From Candidatus Aenigmatarchaeota archaeon (GTDB lineage: Archaea > Aenigmatarchaeota > Aenigmatarchaeia > GW2011-AR5), in assembly GCA_018304585.1 (NCBI GenBank), contig JAGVVY010000005.1:1-32784 (forward strand): 32,784 bases of DNA. The letters are read 5' to 3'. A program made the position numbers and the translations under genes. Shown here piece after piece: positions 357-19,605 of this stretch; the stretch's first letter is position 1; each line of letters starts with the position of its first letter. The notes beneath the pieces are model-generated. The model did no database searches and was not told where the DNA came from. It saw nothing but the letters and a program-made list of their open reading frames with translations.

Positions 357-1034
357 ATGAAAGATGAAGCCGACTACAACAGCCAGCCAATAAATCTATT
401 GCGAACTATTGATAGCATGAAGCTAACCCTGATTCTCATCGCAGTCATGGCCGCGGCGTTCGCCGTCTCGCTAACCGGCCTTGAGAGCATCGTGAACTTT
501 TACGGCCTTTCGGGCGGCAACTTTGCGGCGCGGCCTTACGTTATTTTCACGTCCATATTCCTTCATGCCGACCTTGCGCATCTTCTGTCAAACGTATTCG
601 CGCTCTTTTTCTTCGGCGCGGCGGTCGAGGCTGAAGCCGGCAAATCAAGGATGCTCCCCCTTTTCTTTGCCGGCGCGCTCGCAGGCGCGGCATTTTCCCT
701 CCTTTATTACCCGCCTCACGAGCTGGCTATAGGGGCATCGGCCGGCGTCTTTGCCCTTGTCGGCGCGGGTATGCTGCTCAGGCCGATGGACATATCGTTC
801 TATCCGTACTTTGTGCCTGTGCCTCTGGCGCTCCTCGGCGCGGGCTACATACTCTACAACATATACGGCTTCTTCTTTGATGCCGCTTCCAACGTTTCCT
901 ATGTCGCCCATTTCGGCGGTATTTTCGTGGGCCTTGCATACGGCTTCCGCCGCCAGGGCATAAAGAAGTCCATGCTCGTCATCGCATTTTCCGCTTTCGC
1001 GCTCTATCTTCTCGCGGCGTTCCTGCTGAAATAA
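357..1034 (+). CDS. Rhomboid family intramembrane serine protease (start may be 417)
   Basis: HADLAHLLSNVFAL and GASAGVFALVG motifs, multiple TM segments. Confidence 0.88.
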   Translation: MKDEADYNSQPINLLRTIDSMKLTLILIAVMAAAFAVSLTGLESIVNFYGLSGGNFAARPYVIFTSIFLHADLAHLLSNVFALFFFGAAVEAEAGKSRMLPLFFAGALAGAAFSLLYYPPHELAIGASAGVFALVGAGMLLRPMDISFYPYFVPVPLALLGAGYILYNIYGFFFDAASNVSYVAHFGGIFVGLAYGFRRQGIKKSMLVIAFSAFALYLLAAFLLK

Positions 1035-1066
1035 ACTTCTTATAGTACCGCCGCCATAATCATGAA

Positions 1067-1438
1067 ATGGCAAAAGGAGTAACCGAAGTAATTGCAATCA
1101 TACTACTATTGCTCATAACGGTTGCAGTTATTGGATTCGCAACGGGTTTCTTCCAGTCAATCGTGACAACGGGTGGACAGCAGGCGCAAGACGCGTCTAA
1201 AGCAACAGGAGACAGAGTTCATTCCATAACCATCAAGAATGCCGGGACGCAGGACATAGACACAGCCAAACTCTCATTCCTTGTAGACGGCAGCTCTGTG
1301 ACATGCATTCCTGCATTGTCAGGCTCCAAAAGCCCGGGACAAACCATAACATGTGAGGGTATTACCTGTGCAAGCGGGGACGCTATAACCGTATCCGCTC
1401 CGGGAAACACGGTAACTGGAGTATGCCCATCGGCATAA
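1067..1438 (+). CDS. Archaeal type IV pilin-like protein, copy 1
   Basis: Class III signal-like N-terminus MAKGVTEVIAIILLLLITVAVIGFATGFF; paralog of the next two genes. Confidence 0.85.
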   Translation: MAKGVTEVIAIILLLLITVAVIGFATGFFQSIVTTGGQQAQDASKATGDRVHSITIKNAGTQDIDTAKLSFLVDGSSVTCIPALSGSKSPGQTITCEGITCASGDAITVSAPGNTVTGVCPSA

Positions 1439-1639
1439 AAACAATTTAGTTTTTTCTTTTCCGTTTCCTTATTATTGGCCCTGCCAAAGCCGCGTATAGG
1501 CATTTGCAAAACATTTTGCATCAACCGATAGGTTGTGGCGTACCGCTTAGGGTACTGCTGTTTATCATCGTTTGCACAATGCGTCTGCGCGCATCGAACC
1601 TTTTTATAGCGGCTCTCCCATATTTGGTCAGGCGATTGA

Positions 1640-2095
1640 ATGAAGAAAGGTATAACGCCGGTAATTGCAATCATACTACTGTTGCTCATAACGATTGCAG
1701 TTATTGGATTCGCAACAATTTTCTTCCAGTCAATCGTGACAACGGGTGGGGAACAGGCGCGAAACGCATCACAACAGACAAGCTCAAGGGTTCTTCAGGT
1801 CATAGAATTCGTAGTTGCATCTAAAGACTCTATAAGCGTCAAGAACTCCGGCGCTGCAAACATATTGAAGGAAGACATCAGCTTCCTTGTCGGCGGTTCT
1901 CCGGTTCCTACTTGCGGCGGAACAAGCTCGGGTGATGTCTTGATCGGCAATAGCGCCGAACCCGCAGAAGCTGCGCCAGGACAACTCATAACATGCAGCC
2001 TTGATGGCGTCTGCGATGGTGACAATTCGGGCAAGTCCATAACCGTCGCCGCGCCTGGCAACAGCATAACGGACAAGGCTTGCCCCACGGCCTGA
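1640..2095 (+). CDS. Archaeal type IV pilin-like protein, copy 2
   Basis: MKKGITPVIAIILLLLITIAVIGFATIFFQSIVTTGGEQA; upstream 'cctttttata' TATA-like box shared with copy 3. Confidence 0.86.
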   Translation: MKKGITPVIAIILLLLITIAVIGFATIFFQSIVTTGGEQARNASQQTSSRVLQVIEFVVASKDSISVKNSGAANILKEDISFLVGGSPVPTCGGTSSGDVLIGNSAEPAEAAPGQLITCSLDGVCDGDNSGKSITVAAPGNSITDKACPTA

Positions 2096-2112
2096 TTATA
2101 TGCGGATAAAGT

Positions 2113-2149
2113 TTCCGTTTTCGGAAGGCTTTGTTGCAAAAGCCTTTTT
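2113..2149 (+). terminator. Hairpin(s) followed by T-run downstream of pilin copy 2
   Basis: ttccg-tttt-cggaa, then aaggcttt-gttgc-aaaagcctttttt-like stem plus T-run. Confidence 0.5.
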
Positions 2150-2176
2150 ACGCCCCCATACGCCGGCATGCTTAAC

Positions 2177-2260
2177 TATAGCAAATGACAGAAGCATTCG
2201 GGCAAAATTCTGTCTTTGCTGTACGTAGAGAATGCCTGAAAACTAATGTCATCTGCTATA
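2177..2260. repeat. Structured dispersed repeat family R1, copy 2 (84 bp)
   Basis: TATAGCAAATGACAGAAGCATTCGGGCAAAATTCTGTC...ACTAATGTCATCTGCTATA. Confidence 0.87.
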
Positions 2261-2361
2261 ATGCAACACGCCGATTGCATTCTATATCCATTTACGCAAC
2301 AACGCTTTTTTCGCAAAAAACCTTTTTATACGGGCTCCCGCATACTTAGTTAGGTGATTGA

Positions 2362-2746
2362 GTGAAGAAAGGTATAACGCCGGTAATTGCAATCATACTA
2401 CTGTTGCTCATAACGATTGCAGTTATTGGATTCGCAACGGGTTTCTTCCAGTCAATCGTGACAACGGGTGGACAGCAGGCGCAAGACGCGTCTAAAGCAA
2501 CAGGAGACAGAGTTCACCATCAAGAACGCAGGAACGAAGAATATTTTAGGTACAGAATTATCGTTCCTTCTTGCAGGCAGTCCCATAGCATGCTCCCCTG
2601 CCCTGACTAATACCGACATTATTTTACCAGGGAAGACGGTTACATGCGTAATTGGAACAACAGCAGGAGATGACTGCGCGTCTTTGGCCGCTATAACTGT
2701 ATCCGCGCCGGGAAACACGGTAACTGGAACTTGTCCATCGGCATAA
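2362..2746 (+). pseudogene. Type IV pilin-like gene copy 3, frameshifted (GTG start)
   Basis: N-terminal half (2362..2610 frame) and C-terminal half (2468..2746 frame) are both homologous to copy 1 but in different frames; relative to copy 1, 8 bp ('attccata') are missing at ~2515. Confidence 0.8.
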
Positions 2747-2852
2747 AAATAGTTTAAGTTTTTTCCGTTTACTTATTCTTATCTTATAGATATGGCAATG
2801 CAAAGTCACTGCATATTTAAAGTTGAGGAAATAACTTATCAAAGTGTTTTGA

Positions 2853-5990: not shown

Positions 5991-6539
5991 CTACGGCTTC
6001 TTTTTCCTTTGTTTCTTCTTCGGCACCGTTTCAAAAGGCGGGAGATTTACTTGCGATATTGCATAATCTTGCATGCCATTAAGGCAACCGTAAACTATCA
6101 GAACGAATGGCATATTATACGCTGTTATAGCCGGATCGAGCCCTTTTTCTATGCCGGCCCTGAATTTCTTGACTTGTATTTTTGCGCCTGCTTCTATCTG
6201 CGCATCTTTCATGGATTTGACTTCAACGGGAATATAGAAAATCGCATCACAATCCCCGGCGCCATATCCGACTATCCCGATTTCAAGAACAAGATCGGGC
6301 ATAGCCGTATTGACTGCTTGATTGCCGTTTTCGTCTTTCGGCATATAATCCAGATGCACGCTCCTTATGTGCGATATTCCGGCCGCGCGCTCAATATAAG
6401 GAAGCAATGTTTCCGGCCTATTGTAAAAAACATCTGAAGCCTGTCGTGCGCCGTAACAACATGGCCGTCTGTAAGCGTCATATATAGCAAATGACAGAAG
6501 TATCTGGACAACTCTGTCTTTGCTGTATGCAGATGACAT
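5991..6539 (-). CDS. Hypothetical protein, possible PD-(D/E)XK-type nuclease fold (true start uncertain)
   Basis: GDCDAIFYIPVEVKSMKD resembles the D...ExK signature; the 5' end of the ORF lies inside repeat R1 copy 3. Confidence 0.45.
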   Translation of the reverse strand: MSSAYSKDRVVQILLSFAIYDAYRRPCCYGARQASDVFYNRPETLLPYIERAAGISHIRSVHLDYMPKDENGNQAVNTAMPDLVLEIGIVGYGAGDCDAIFYIPVEVKSMKDAQIEAGAKIQVKKFRAGIEKGLDPAITAYNMPFVLIVYGCLNGMQDYAISQVNLPPFETVPKKKQRKKKP

Positions 6540-6574
6540 TAGGATGCCTGAAAACTAATGTCATCTACTATAGA
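6483..6574. repeat. Structured dispersed repeat family R1, copy 3 (92 bp, longest form)
   Basis: TATAGCAAATGACAGAAG...GCAGATGACATTAG-GATGCCTGAAAA-CTAATGTCATCTAC-TATA; retains the full second hairpin. Confidence 0.87.
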
Positions 6575-12645: not shown

Positions 12646-12802
12646 TGCGATATTTTCCCCCTGCGTATTTATAGCCGATGCCGAAAGCCGGCTATGCAAG
12701 GGACGCCGATATGTAGTACGATGTCCGCTAAATTCCTTTATTAATTCTGTTCATGCTTTCGGGCAATTTGCCTCTAAGCTCCGTTTTTAGCATTGTAATT
12801 CA

Positions 12803-12900
12803 AGCTTTGCACGAAAAGTAGCCAATGAACACAAGATGTTGTGATTTTAGAAAGTCAGAATACAACCGGTTGACCGATTTTGGACTTTAGGTGCAAAGCC
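12803..12900. mobile_element. MITE-like element M1, copy A (98 bp)
   Basis: Ends AGCTTTGCACGAAAAGT / ACTTTAGGTGCAAAGCC; flanked by TGTAATTCA direct repeats (12794-12802, 12901-12909); 97/98 identical to copy B. Confidence 0.92.
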
Positions 12901-12967
12901 TGTAATTCATAAAGCTTTTTTAGGGACTGTGTAGTAGATATTCTTCATCGCGCATGACAGATACCTT

Positions 12968-17259: not shown

Positions 17260-19428
17260 TCATACATCCGTTTCCTTCTCTTCCGCGCCGTATATGGCGC
17301 TTCTCCCGATCTCTTCCATGACCTTTTCCGCGACCTTGATGCCCAGCAGCTCTTTCACCTTTTCCGGGTCGTTGCGCACGTCAGCGAGCCGCTTGATTCC
17401 GTTACTGTAAAGCTTCCGCGCCCTTGTGCGTCCTATGCCCCTGACAAGAACAAGCCTCAGCAGCTCCTCCTTCACGCCGTAGACGACGCGCAGCCGCACC
17501 TTGTTTATCTCCTTCGCGGCATCCTTGTCGCCAAGCGTCATCGCCAGTTCGCGGGCGGCATAAAGCATCCAGCCGGCATTCGTTTTCTTCGTATGGATTT
17601 CTCCCGGCGCAGCTCCGTATTTCTCGAGCAGCGCATCCTCGCCTGTCTCGTTCATCCAGTCAAGGAACATTAGAGACGTCTTGAATTCGCCCAGGAAATC
17701 CTCGTAGTCCATGTCCCATGCGTCTGGCGCCGCAAGGCCGGAACTTTCGAGCGCGGTCTCGATATCCTCGGCTTCCTTCTGCTTGACGCGCAAGAGCGGC
17801 ATCATCTCGACGCAGTGATTCATGGTCATGAGATATTCAAGAGCCGACTTCTTTCGCACGTTCTTTATCAGATGATTCGCGGAAAGCGGATCTATGTAGA
17901 GCTCGGCCACGCGCCTACCGAGCGCCGTTGCCTCAAGCGCAGGATCCGTGTTCAGCTCGAAAGCAGGCATGAAGTCGCCGAGCGTTGCGGCCTCGCCGGA
18001 GAATTTTATGAACCCGAAGTCCTTCAGTATGCGCAAAACTTTCTCTATCTTGGACATGACGTCTTCGATATCGCCGTACTGGTGGGCAAAGAACGTCTTT
18101 GAGAAGAAGTTCCGCAGCTGGCCTTTGGAGGTCGCGAAGTTTGACGTCACAAGAGCCAAAACGTGCATCCTCAGCACAGGCTCAACCGAAAGCTTGGAAT
18201 AGATGTTCTCGGTTTCGCCGTTTATGTAGCGCTCTTCCATGGCGCTTTTTTCAGCTTCACTCTTCGCCAGAAGTATTGCCTCCCCTTCCTTGTCGTAGCG
18301 GGGCCTGCCTGCCCGTCCGAACATTTGAGATATTTCTATGTTAGGGATGAAGTCCATGCCGTACTTCATATAGCGCTTCGTGTCCCTGACAATGACGCGG
18401 CTCGCCGGCAGGTTCAGGCCAAAGGCAAGGCTTGTTGTCGCCGTTATGAAATTTATCTTTCCTGCGCGAAAATTATCCTCGATAAGCTTCCTCTGCTTCG
18501 CTACAAGCCCTGCATGATGGAACGCGCTGCCTTTTCTTACTATAGTTGCAAGGCGCCTGCACTGCTTTGTCGGCGAGGGCAGGGCGCGCTCTATGTCGTT
18601 CGCTATTTTTTCAAGTTCAGGACTCGCCACCGGAATCTTCGCAGCTATCTTCTCGGCTTCGGCCTCGGCGCTCCGGCGCGTTGAAACGAACACGAGCGCC
18701 TGCTTTTTCCGGTCAAGCGTGTCCTTGCACAAGGCGAACTGGTCCTTGTGGCCGTTGCTTATGGCGATTTTTTCGTTGCCAAAGTGGATGAAATTGTCAA
18801 GGAATACGCCCTTCTTCAGCTTTACCGGCCGATAGTCGCTCTTTACAAGCTCCGCGGAAAGCCAGCCGGCTATTTCTGACGCGTTCTTTATCGTTGCCGA
18901 AAGTGCAAGAATCTGGGCGTTAGATTCCGCGCGCAAGCGCGTAAGGACCATCTCAAGCGTGGGCCCCCGCGAGGCATCGTCCAGCAGATGAACTTCGTCC
19001 GATATGACCAGCGTCACGTCCCGAACCCACTGCGCCTTGTGCCGCAGCAGCGAGTCCATCTTCTCGTTGCTCGCAATGATGAGGTCATAGTTCTTCAGCC
19101 ATACGTCTTCCGAGTCCATGTCGCCTACCGATATCGCAACCCTCATGCCTATCTTCCCGTAACGCGACTTGAACTCATCGTATTTCTCGGATCCCAGCGC
19201 CTTTAGCGGGACGAGATACACCGACTTCCCGCCGGAAAGGAAATGCCTGAGAAACGCCATCTCGGCTATCAGCGTCTTTCCCGAAGCCGTTGGCGCGGCA
19301 ATGACCAGGTTCTTGCCATCCAAAAGCCCCGCCTTCACCGCTGCCTCCTGCGGCGGATTAAGCTTCTCGGCTTCTTCCGATAGAACGACCAAGGCTTTCT
19401 CCGGCAACGGAAGCTCTTTCACAAGCAT
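17260..19428 (-). CDS. hel308: ATP-dependent DNA helicase Hel308
   Basis: Q-motif PPQEAAVKAG; Walker A APTASGKT; DEVH box; MFGRAGRPRYD; C-terminal HhH LVRGIGRTRARKLYSNGIK. Confidence 0.95.
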   Translation of the reverse strand: MLVKELPLPEKALVVLSEEAEKLNPPQEAAVKAGLLDGKNLVIAAPTASGKTLIAEMAFLRHFLSGGKSVYLVPLKALGSEKYDEFKSRYGKIGMRVAISVGDMDSEDVWLKNYDLIIASNEKMDSLLRHKAQWVRDVTLVISDEVHLLDDASRGPTLEMVLTRLRAESNAQILALSATIKNASEIAGWLSAELVKSDYRPVKLKKGVFLDNFIHFGNEKIAISNGHKDQFALCKDTLDRKKQALVFVSTRRSAEAEAEKIAAKIPVASPELEKIANDIERALPSPTKQCRRLATIVRKGSAFHHAGLVAKQRKLIEDNFRAGKINFITATTSLAFGLNLPASRVIVRDTKRYMKYGMDFIPNIEISQMFGRAGRPRYDKEGEAILLAKSEAEKSAMEERYINGETENIYSKLSVEPVLRMHVLALVTSNFATSKGQLRNFFSKTFFAHQYGDIEDVMSKIEKVLRILKDFGFIKFSGEAATLGDFMPAFELNTDPALEATALGRRVAELYIDPLSANHLIKNVRKKSALEYLMTMNHCVEMMPLLRVKQKEAEDIETALESSGLAAPDAWDMDYEDFLGEFKTSLMFLDWMNETGEDALLEKYGAAPGEIHTKKTNAGWMLYAARELAMTLGDKDAAKEINKVRLRVVYGVKEELLRLVLVRGIGRTRARKLYSNGIKRLADVRNDPEKVKELLGIKVAEKVMEEIGRSAIYGAEEKETDV

Positions 19429-19463
19429 ACATATTACTTCGGAAGAAAGGTTTTATGGGTTAA

Positions 19464-19561
19464 AGCTTTGCACGAAAAGTAGCCAATGAACACAAGATGT
19501 TGTGATTTTAGAGAGTCAGAATACAACCGGTTGACCGATTTTGGACTTTAGGTGCAAAGCC
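19464..19561. mobile_element. MITE-like element M1, copy B (98 bp)
   Basis: Flanked by ATGGGTTAA (19455-19463) and GTGGGTTAA (19562-19570), 8/9 match; one internal mismatch to copy A. Confidence 0.92.
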
Positions 19562-19605
19562 GTGGGTTAAACAACGCTTATATTCCACCATATGCAATTA
19601 TCAAA

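Follow-up and report, generated by a model that had tools for sequence, protein, structure and literature searches.

A 98-bp non-coding element in the genome of a Candidatus Aenigmatarchaeota archaeon, here called MITE-1, is a MITE, and we consider it very likely that it is non-autonomous and moved in trans by an IS903-like transposase from a family of cargo transposons. It is a sequence family of its own, found in one species only, and a fresh member of the known class of MITEs. Its relation to transposons that carry defence genes lies beyond what could be seen in the window, i.e. the whole 32,784-nucleotide stretch of DNA that was analysed, from which an earlier note had described the element. 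The window is part of an archaeal assembly of 825 kb (82.5% complete), which encodes an archaeal-type Hel308, pilins and a thermosome.

Structure of MITE-1

Copy A occupies positions 12803-12900 of the plus strand, exactly where the earlier note had placed it, between two identical 9-bp target-site duplications (TSDs; TGTAATTCA, 12794-12802 and 12901-12909, both plus strand). Its termini are inverted repeats, as described there: the left terminal inverted repeat (TIR; AGCTTTGCACGAAAAGT, 12803-12819, plus strand) and the right one (GGCTTTGCACCTAAAGT on the minus strand, 12884-12900) pair at 14 of 17 positions, with position 1 (A/G) unpaired, a perfect inversion of GCTTTGCAC at positions 2-10, then two mismatches, and then AAAGT. 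The inner palindromes reported for this non-coding element are also present, one of them perfect (CAACCGGTTG, 12863-12872, plus strand) and the other imperfect with 5-bp arms (CACAAGATGTTGTG, 12830-12843, plus strand). Single strands fold better than 200 of 200 shuffles (z -4.3 to -5.3); a structured RNA was ruled out because an Rfam search of the window returned no matches. With a length well under ~300 bp, no coding capacity, TIRs, a TSD and an empty site, multiple dispersed copies, and ends in common with transposase-bearing elements, none of which is intact in its own genome, the element has the features that define a MITE.

Transposition and distribution of MITE-1

The second copy in the window, copy B (19464-19561, plus strand), differs from copy A only at position 50, in agreement with the 97/98 identity given earlier. 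Its flanks, ATGGGTTAA on the left (19455-19463, plus strand) and GTGGGTTAA on the right (19562-19570, plus strand), match at eight of nine positions. It lies between the start of a Hel308-like gene (17260-19428, minus strand) and a ferric-reductase-like gene on the plus strand with a probable ATG at about 19606; the site is a divergent promoter region, and the helicase gene starts some 35 bp away. The congener G002 can be aligned on both sides of this copy and has a single ATGGCTTAA there, lacking exactly 98 + 9 bp. Copy B arose by transposition with a 9-bp duplication, and the comparison of empty sites called for in the earlier note thus bears out its claim of a transposed MITE. The neighbourhood of copy A, sought in G002, is missing there, so that its insertion by transposition follows from its perfect TSD and its kinship with copy B. 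The two copies, 6.6 kb apart, have a private change in common at position 56 and are therefore each other's closest copies.

A genome-wide search for the 98-mer, also proposed in that note, gave 10 full copies on eight contigs. Nine of these are 96-100% alike, with 0-4 base differences over positions 3-90, and the one on C4 is older, with 17-18 differences. Flank pairs match at 9/9 positions in five copies (A, C29:914, C16, C2 and C24) and at 8/9 in two (B and C4), while no recognisable duplication was found at the remaining three (C14, C3 and C29:19195); when the left flank of one copy was set against the right flank of another as a control, the best of 90 mismatched pairs reached 6/9. MITE-1 was found neither in the 145 relatives searched nor in viral contigs, the sole other match among the relatives being that of its right end (20/20 nt) to a transposon-type end in G141. 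This result suggests a recent origin, as had been proposed, and leaves no sign of the conservation at orthologous sites that the earlier note had named as evidence against it.

One could suppose that the repeats spread once by transposition and are now retained in intergenic DNA as host regulatory elements, either promoter insulators or hairpins. The sites are all essentially intergenic (an ORF crosses just one MITE-1 site and one examined MITE-2 site, both as edge overlaps), copy B is placed in a divergent promoter close to a gene start, and the repeat has a strongly palindromic sequence. The intergenic bias, however, is what one would see if purifying selection simply removed insertions that disrupt genes. 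MITE-1 is not found in relatives, its sites are unshared with the congener where this is testable, and the window has no Rfam match, while almost no divergence among copies means that there has been no time for selection to show. We therefore regard retention for regulation as very improbable, and a recently active MITE as the better account of the copies.

MITE-2 and other short repeats

A second family, MITE-2, is 99 bp long (AGCTTTGTTTAATAAATGG...TTTAAACAAAGCC) and present in about nine copies with flanking duplications of their own (e.g. ATTCTATGC); a single degenerate copy occurs in congener G002. The two families have a common inner core, 75% alike over 44 bp, and differ in their termini. 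The palindrome CACAAGATGTTGTG is common to both and was ruled out as a transposase site, as it is found at none of the ends of the full transposons described below. At C29:18982-19291 (L005), three MITE-type elements stand in tandem, namely a third type (GGGTTTGCACAAAAAGC..., with CACAAGATGCTGTG), MITE-2 and MITE-1; 9-10 bp separate MITE-2 from MITE-1, and clear duplications are seen at none of the three.

A further repeat family of about 88 bp is found in the window at 215-312, 2173-2261 and 6482-6572, and the genome holds 18 or more copies of nearly full length. Its ends (TATAG-CAAATGACA... and ...TGTCATCTACTATA, whose outer edges are TA) are suggestive of an IS630/Tc1-like MITE. The MITE-2 copy at C1:8576 sits inside one of these repeats. 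The same family occurs near three diverged tandem pilin-like genes with D1/D4 repeats (window 1017-2763), the third of which is frameshifted.

Cargo transposons in related genomes

Related transposases (E<=1e-20) are encoded in 25 of 158 genomes of the phylum, the MITE-bearing genome included; the sampled genomes listed are each no larger than 1.9 Mb and mostly 0.4-1.2 Mb, sizes that make a DPANN-type lineage likely for the window. Six complete elements of 2.6-6.9 kb were delimited in relatives, all of which have ends of the same type and exact 9/9 TSDs; this count leaves out G006, G078, G113, G053, G033, G032, G139 and G040, with regard to their far ends. Two of the six, both in G015, carry a type IIG restriction-modification (RM) gene, split in G015a (5754 bp) and intact with 978 aa in G015b (6754 bp), and a third, G111a (5150 bp), carries a Dam-type methylase, a PDDEXK_11 nuclease and a ParB-like protein. 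Clear defence cargo, restriction-modification, is thus present in three of six complete elements, in addition to the DISARM element described below. The cargo of G056 (6896 bp) is mixed and includes no recognised defence system, and that of G010b (2576 bp) consists of small unannotated genes. The element of G002 (3686 bp, L130:16053-19738) encodes two proteins, one of 478 aa that has a GGQHR motif and one of 162 aa that is weakly HEPN-like; this cargo had no matches in PADLOC, and the two proteins are a candidate for an unknown defence pair.

The end motif of the family is TTTGCACnTAAAGT, or TTTGTTTAAATAAT or TTTGTTGAATAAGT in other members. At the far end of several elements it recurs in direct orientation at about positions 22 and 42, and at the transposase end it recurs inverted at about 32 and/or 52, where shuffles lead one to expect 0.05-0.9 matches. 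Most of the transposases have a SWIM-type zinc finger, which is clear in ORF L074:7839-8969 and scores 17.4 bits, below the cut-off, in the G015b transposase. We consider this defence-carrying family, with its asymmetric multi-repeat ends and SWIM-finger transposase, to be a novel variant; no account of it was found in searches of open-licence papers, which is not proof of novelty. The earlier note had looked towards a full-length IS with GCTTTGCAC..AAAGT termini, and larger elements with such ends do exist elsewhere; no compact IS (about 1.3-1.6 kb) with MITE-1 ends was found around the transposases of the relatives.

A DISARM element in the same genome

Searching the MITE-bearing genome for such ends uncovered a 10,888-bp element with MITE-type ends (C29:34314-45201). 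The end at C29:34314 (AGCTTTGCACTTAAAGT) lies 24 bp beyond the stop of a DDE transposase gene (PF01609), which is in pieces with several frameshifts, and the opposite end (TTTAGGTGCAAAGCC) is at C29:45201; the flanks CGGCATTCA and CGGTATTCA form a TSD of 8/9. Between the ends are five intact adjacent genes, for a cytosine methylase (DrmMII), DrmE, DrmA, DrmB and DrmC, a cargo that, judged by gene content, is a complete class 2 DISARM operon (drmMII, drmA, drmB, drmC, drmE). DrmA, DrmB and DrmC have PADLOC E values of 2e-168, 4e-65 and 7e-17, and do not reach the NCBIfam equivalog cut-offs, from whose DISARM proteins the genes of this element diverge. DrmE scores 152.8 bits against NF038316 DrmE_fam (cut-off 80) and also matches PF24957; DrmMII has an E value of 9e-63, although the DruM2/MTase_II models outscore the DrmMII model.

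Congener G002 has an uninterrupted CGGCATTCA at the corresponding site and lacks exactly 10,888 bp and one 9-mer. This empty site is inside a tract of ~2 kb that is 99.6% identical to the MITE-bearing genome, so that the insertion was precise and is younger than the common tract. Neighbouring genes of this tract (L083:11712-13740 of C29 against G002:C3, L155) are 81-92% identical, and a recent exchange of DNA between the two species is likely from this comparison. The recent insertion and the broken transposase together suggest that the DISARM element was mobilized in trans, unless the frameshifts in its transposase gene are assembly errors.

It might be objected that the DISARM island just happens to sit between two solo MITE-like ends that are unrelated, and is then neither one transposon nor informative on the source of the MITE. 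The far end consists of the terminal motif alone, without the repeats further in, at 22 and 42, that most complete elements have, and the TSD is 8/9 instead of 9/9. The near end, on the other hand, fits the repeat pattern of the family, with inverted repeats at 31 and 51 beside the transposase stop, the congener lacks precisely the 10,888 bp and one 9-mer between almost identical flanks, and in the phylum sample DrmE was not found in any of the 157 remaining genomes. An accidental pairing of ends thus appears highly improbable, and we treat the island as a single transposon. An artefact of MAG assembly is unlikely overall, given that six exact duplications occur independently and that there are two empty sites, though errors at single sites are possible. 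A third MITE-type end, at C6:2339, adjoins a fragment of an MvaI/BcnI endonuclease gene.

Transposase and proposed mechanism

The best NCBIfam model for the transposases of the family is IS5_2, as it is for IS903B; they score 100-135 bits against it (IS903B, 356), under the cut-off of 140, and are therefore termed IS903-like rather than members. The DDE_Tnp_1 domain (PF01609) is present, and D221, D296 and E358 of the DDE triad are invariant with IS903B. The proposed source transposons have GGCTTTG-type ends and a 9-bp TSD, and IS903 itself makes a TSD of 9 bp. At its left end MITE-1 is similar to the transposase-side end of the G015b transposon, and at its right end to the far ends of G015b and G141. 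An origin of MITE-1 by simple internal deletion from a known transposon was rejected, as the match is confined to about the terminal 20 bp, and its core has none of the inner repeats that the full elements bear at their ends. An intact transposase of the family was sought in the assembly, which is 82.5% complete, and none was found, the gene at C29:34314 being frameshifted and that at C29:25334 also broken; nor is there a transposase in the window, as the earlier note had stated.

We propose that an IS903-like (IS5-group) DDE transposase, encoded in trans, would recognize the terminal ~17-20 bp of MITE-1, cut or copy the 98-bp element and join it to intergenic DNA at target sites staggered by 9 bp, and that host repair would convert the stagger into 9-bp direct repeats. 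The source of the transposase would be larger unit transposons with the same ends, the transposase gene at one end and cargo, often defence, between; members of this family in the MITE-bearing genome are the 10.9-kb DISARM transposon with its broken transposase and the remnant by the MvaI/BcnI endonuclease gene fragment. Two parts of this scheme are inferred, namely the movement of the MITE by transposases of this family and the chemistry of cutting. A REP/BIME-type or other housekeeping palindrome, short, palindromic, intergenic and multicopy though the repeat is, is barely credible, as it is already contradicted by the 9-bp target duplications and the precise empty site of copy B.

More broadly, we lean towards the view that small-genome (DPANN-like) archaea harbour dedicated unit transposons, in which a single IS903-like SWIM-finger transposase acts on asymmetric three-repeat ends, and which would carry antiviral systems (DISARM, and restriction-modification of the type IIG and Dam/PD-(D/E)XK kinds) from one species to another and give rise to MITEs, with non-autonomous members, including the DISARM carrier, moved in trans.

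Relation to known systems and significance

The IS903 group of the IS5 family (IS903 and Tn903 of E. coli/Salmonella) has the GGCTTTG-type termini and DDE_Tnp_1 catalytic domain in common with the archaeal family, whose transposases differ in being only about 25% identical and, in most cases, in having an extra N-terminal SWIM zinc finger, and whose elements have extra subterminal end repeats and passenger genes without flanking IS copies. Transporter IS, or IS with passenger genes, combine one transposase and cargo unrelated to it within a single pair of ends, as the archaeal family does. Tn7-type transposons also have asymmetric ends with several repeats, but Tn7 makes a 5-bp TSD, whereas the archaeal family has a single IS903-like transposase, a 9-bp TSD and archaeal hosts, and accessory genes of Tn7 were not seen in it.

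MITEs occur commonly in bacteria and have been described from several archaea, with examples in Sulfolobus, Halobacterium and Haloquadratum and the Coxiella QMITEs (PMC10969869). Like MITE-1, these are short, non-coding, multicopy and intergenic, with TIRs and TSDs, and a related transposase is presumed to move them in trans. MITE-1 differs from them in having a sister family, MITE-2, with the same core and other termini, and in that its related full elements are cargo transposons and not compact IS.

According to a 2019 survey of archaeal integrated elements, no archaeal DNA transposons with passenger genes had been detected (PMC6563490). In a 2026 survey, restriction-modification was underrepresented in DPANN archaea, for which a preference for compact single-gene defences was suggested (PMC12988326). 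Set apart from other class 2 DISARM systems, the one described here is borne by a precise single-transposase transposon. In this case a defence system of several genes came into a small archaeal genome on a single, precisely delimited transposon, and a congener has kept the empty site. The question of what moves defence islands in small archaea can thereby be tested directly, and the abundant MITE offers a ready-made substrate for the transposase, and a marker for it as well.
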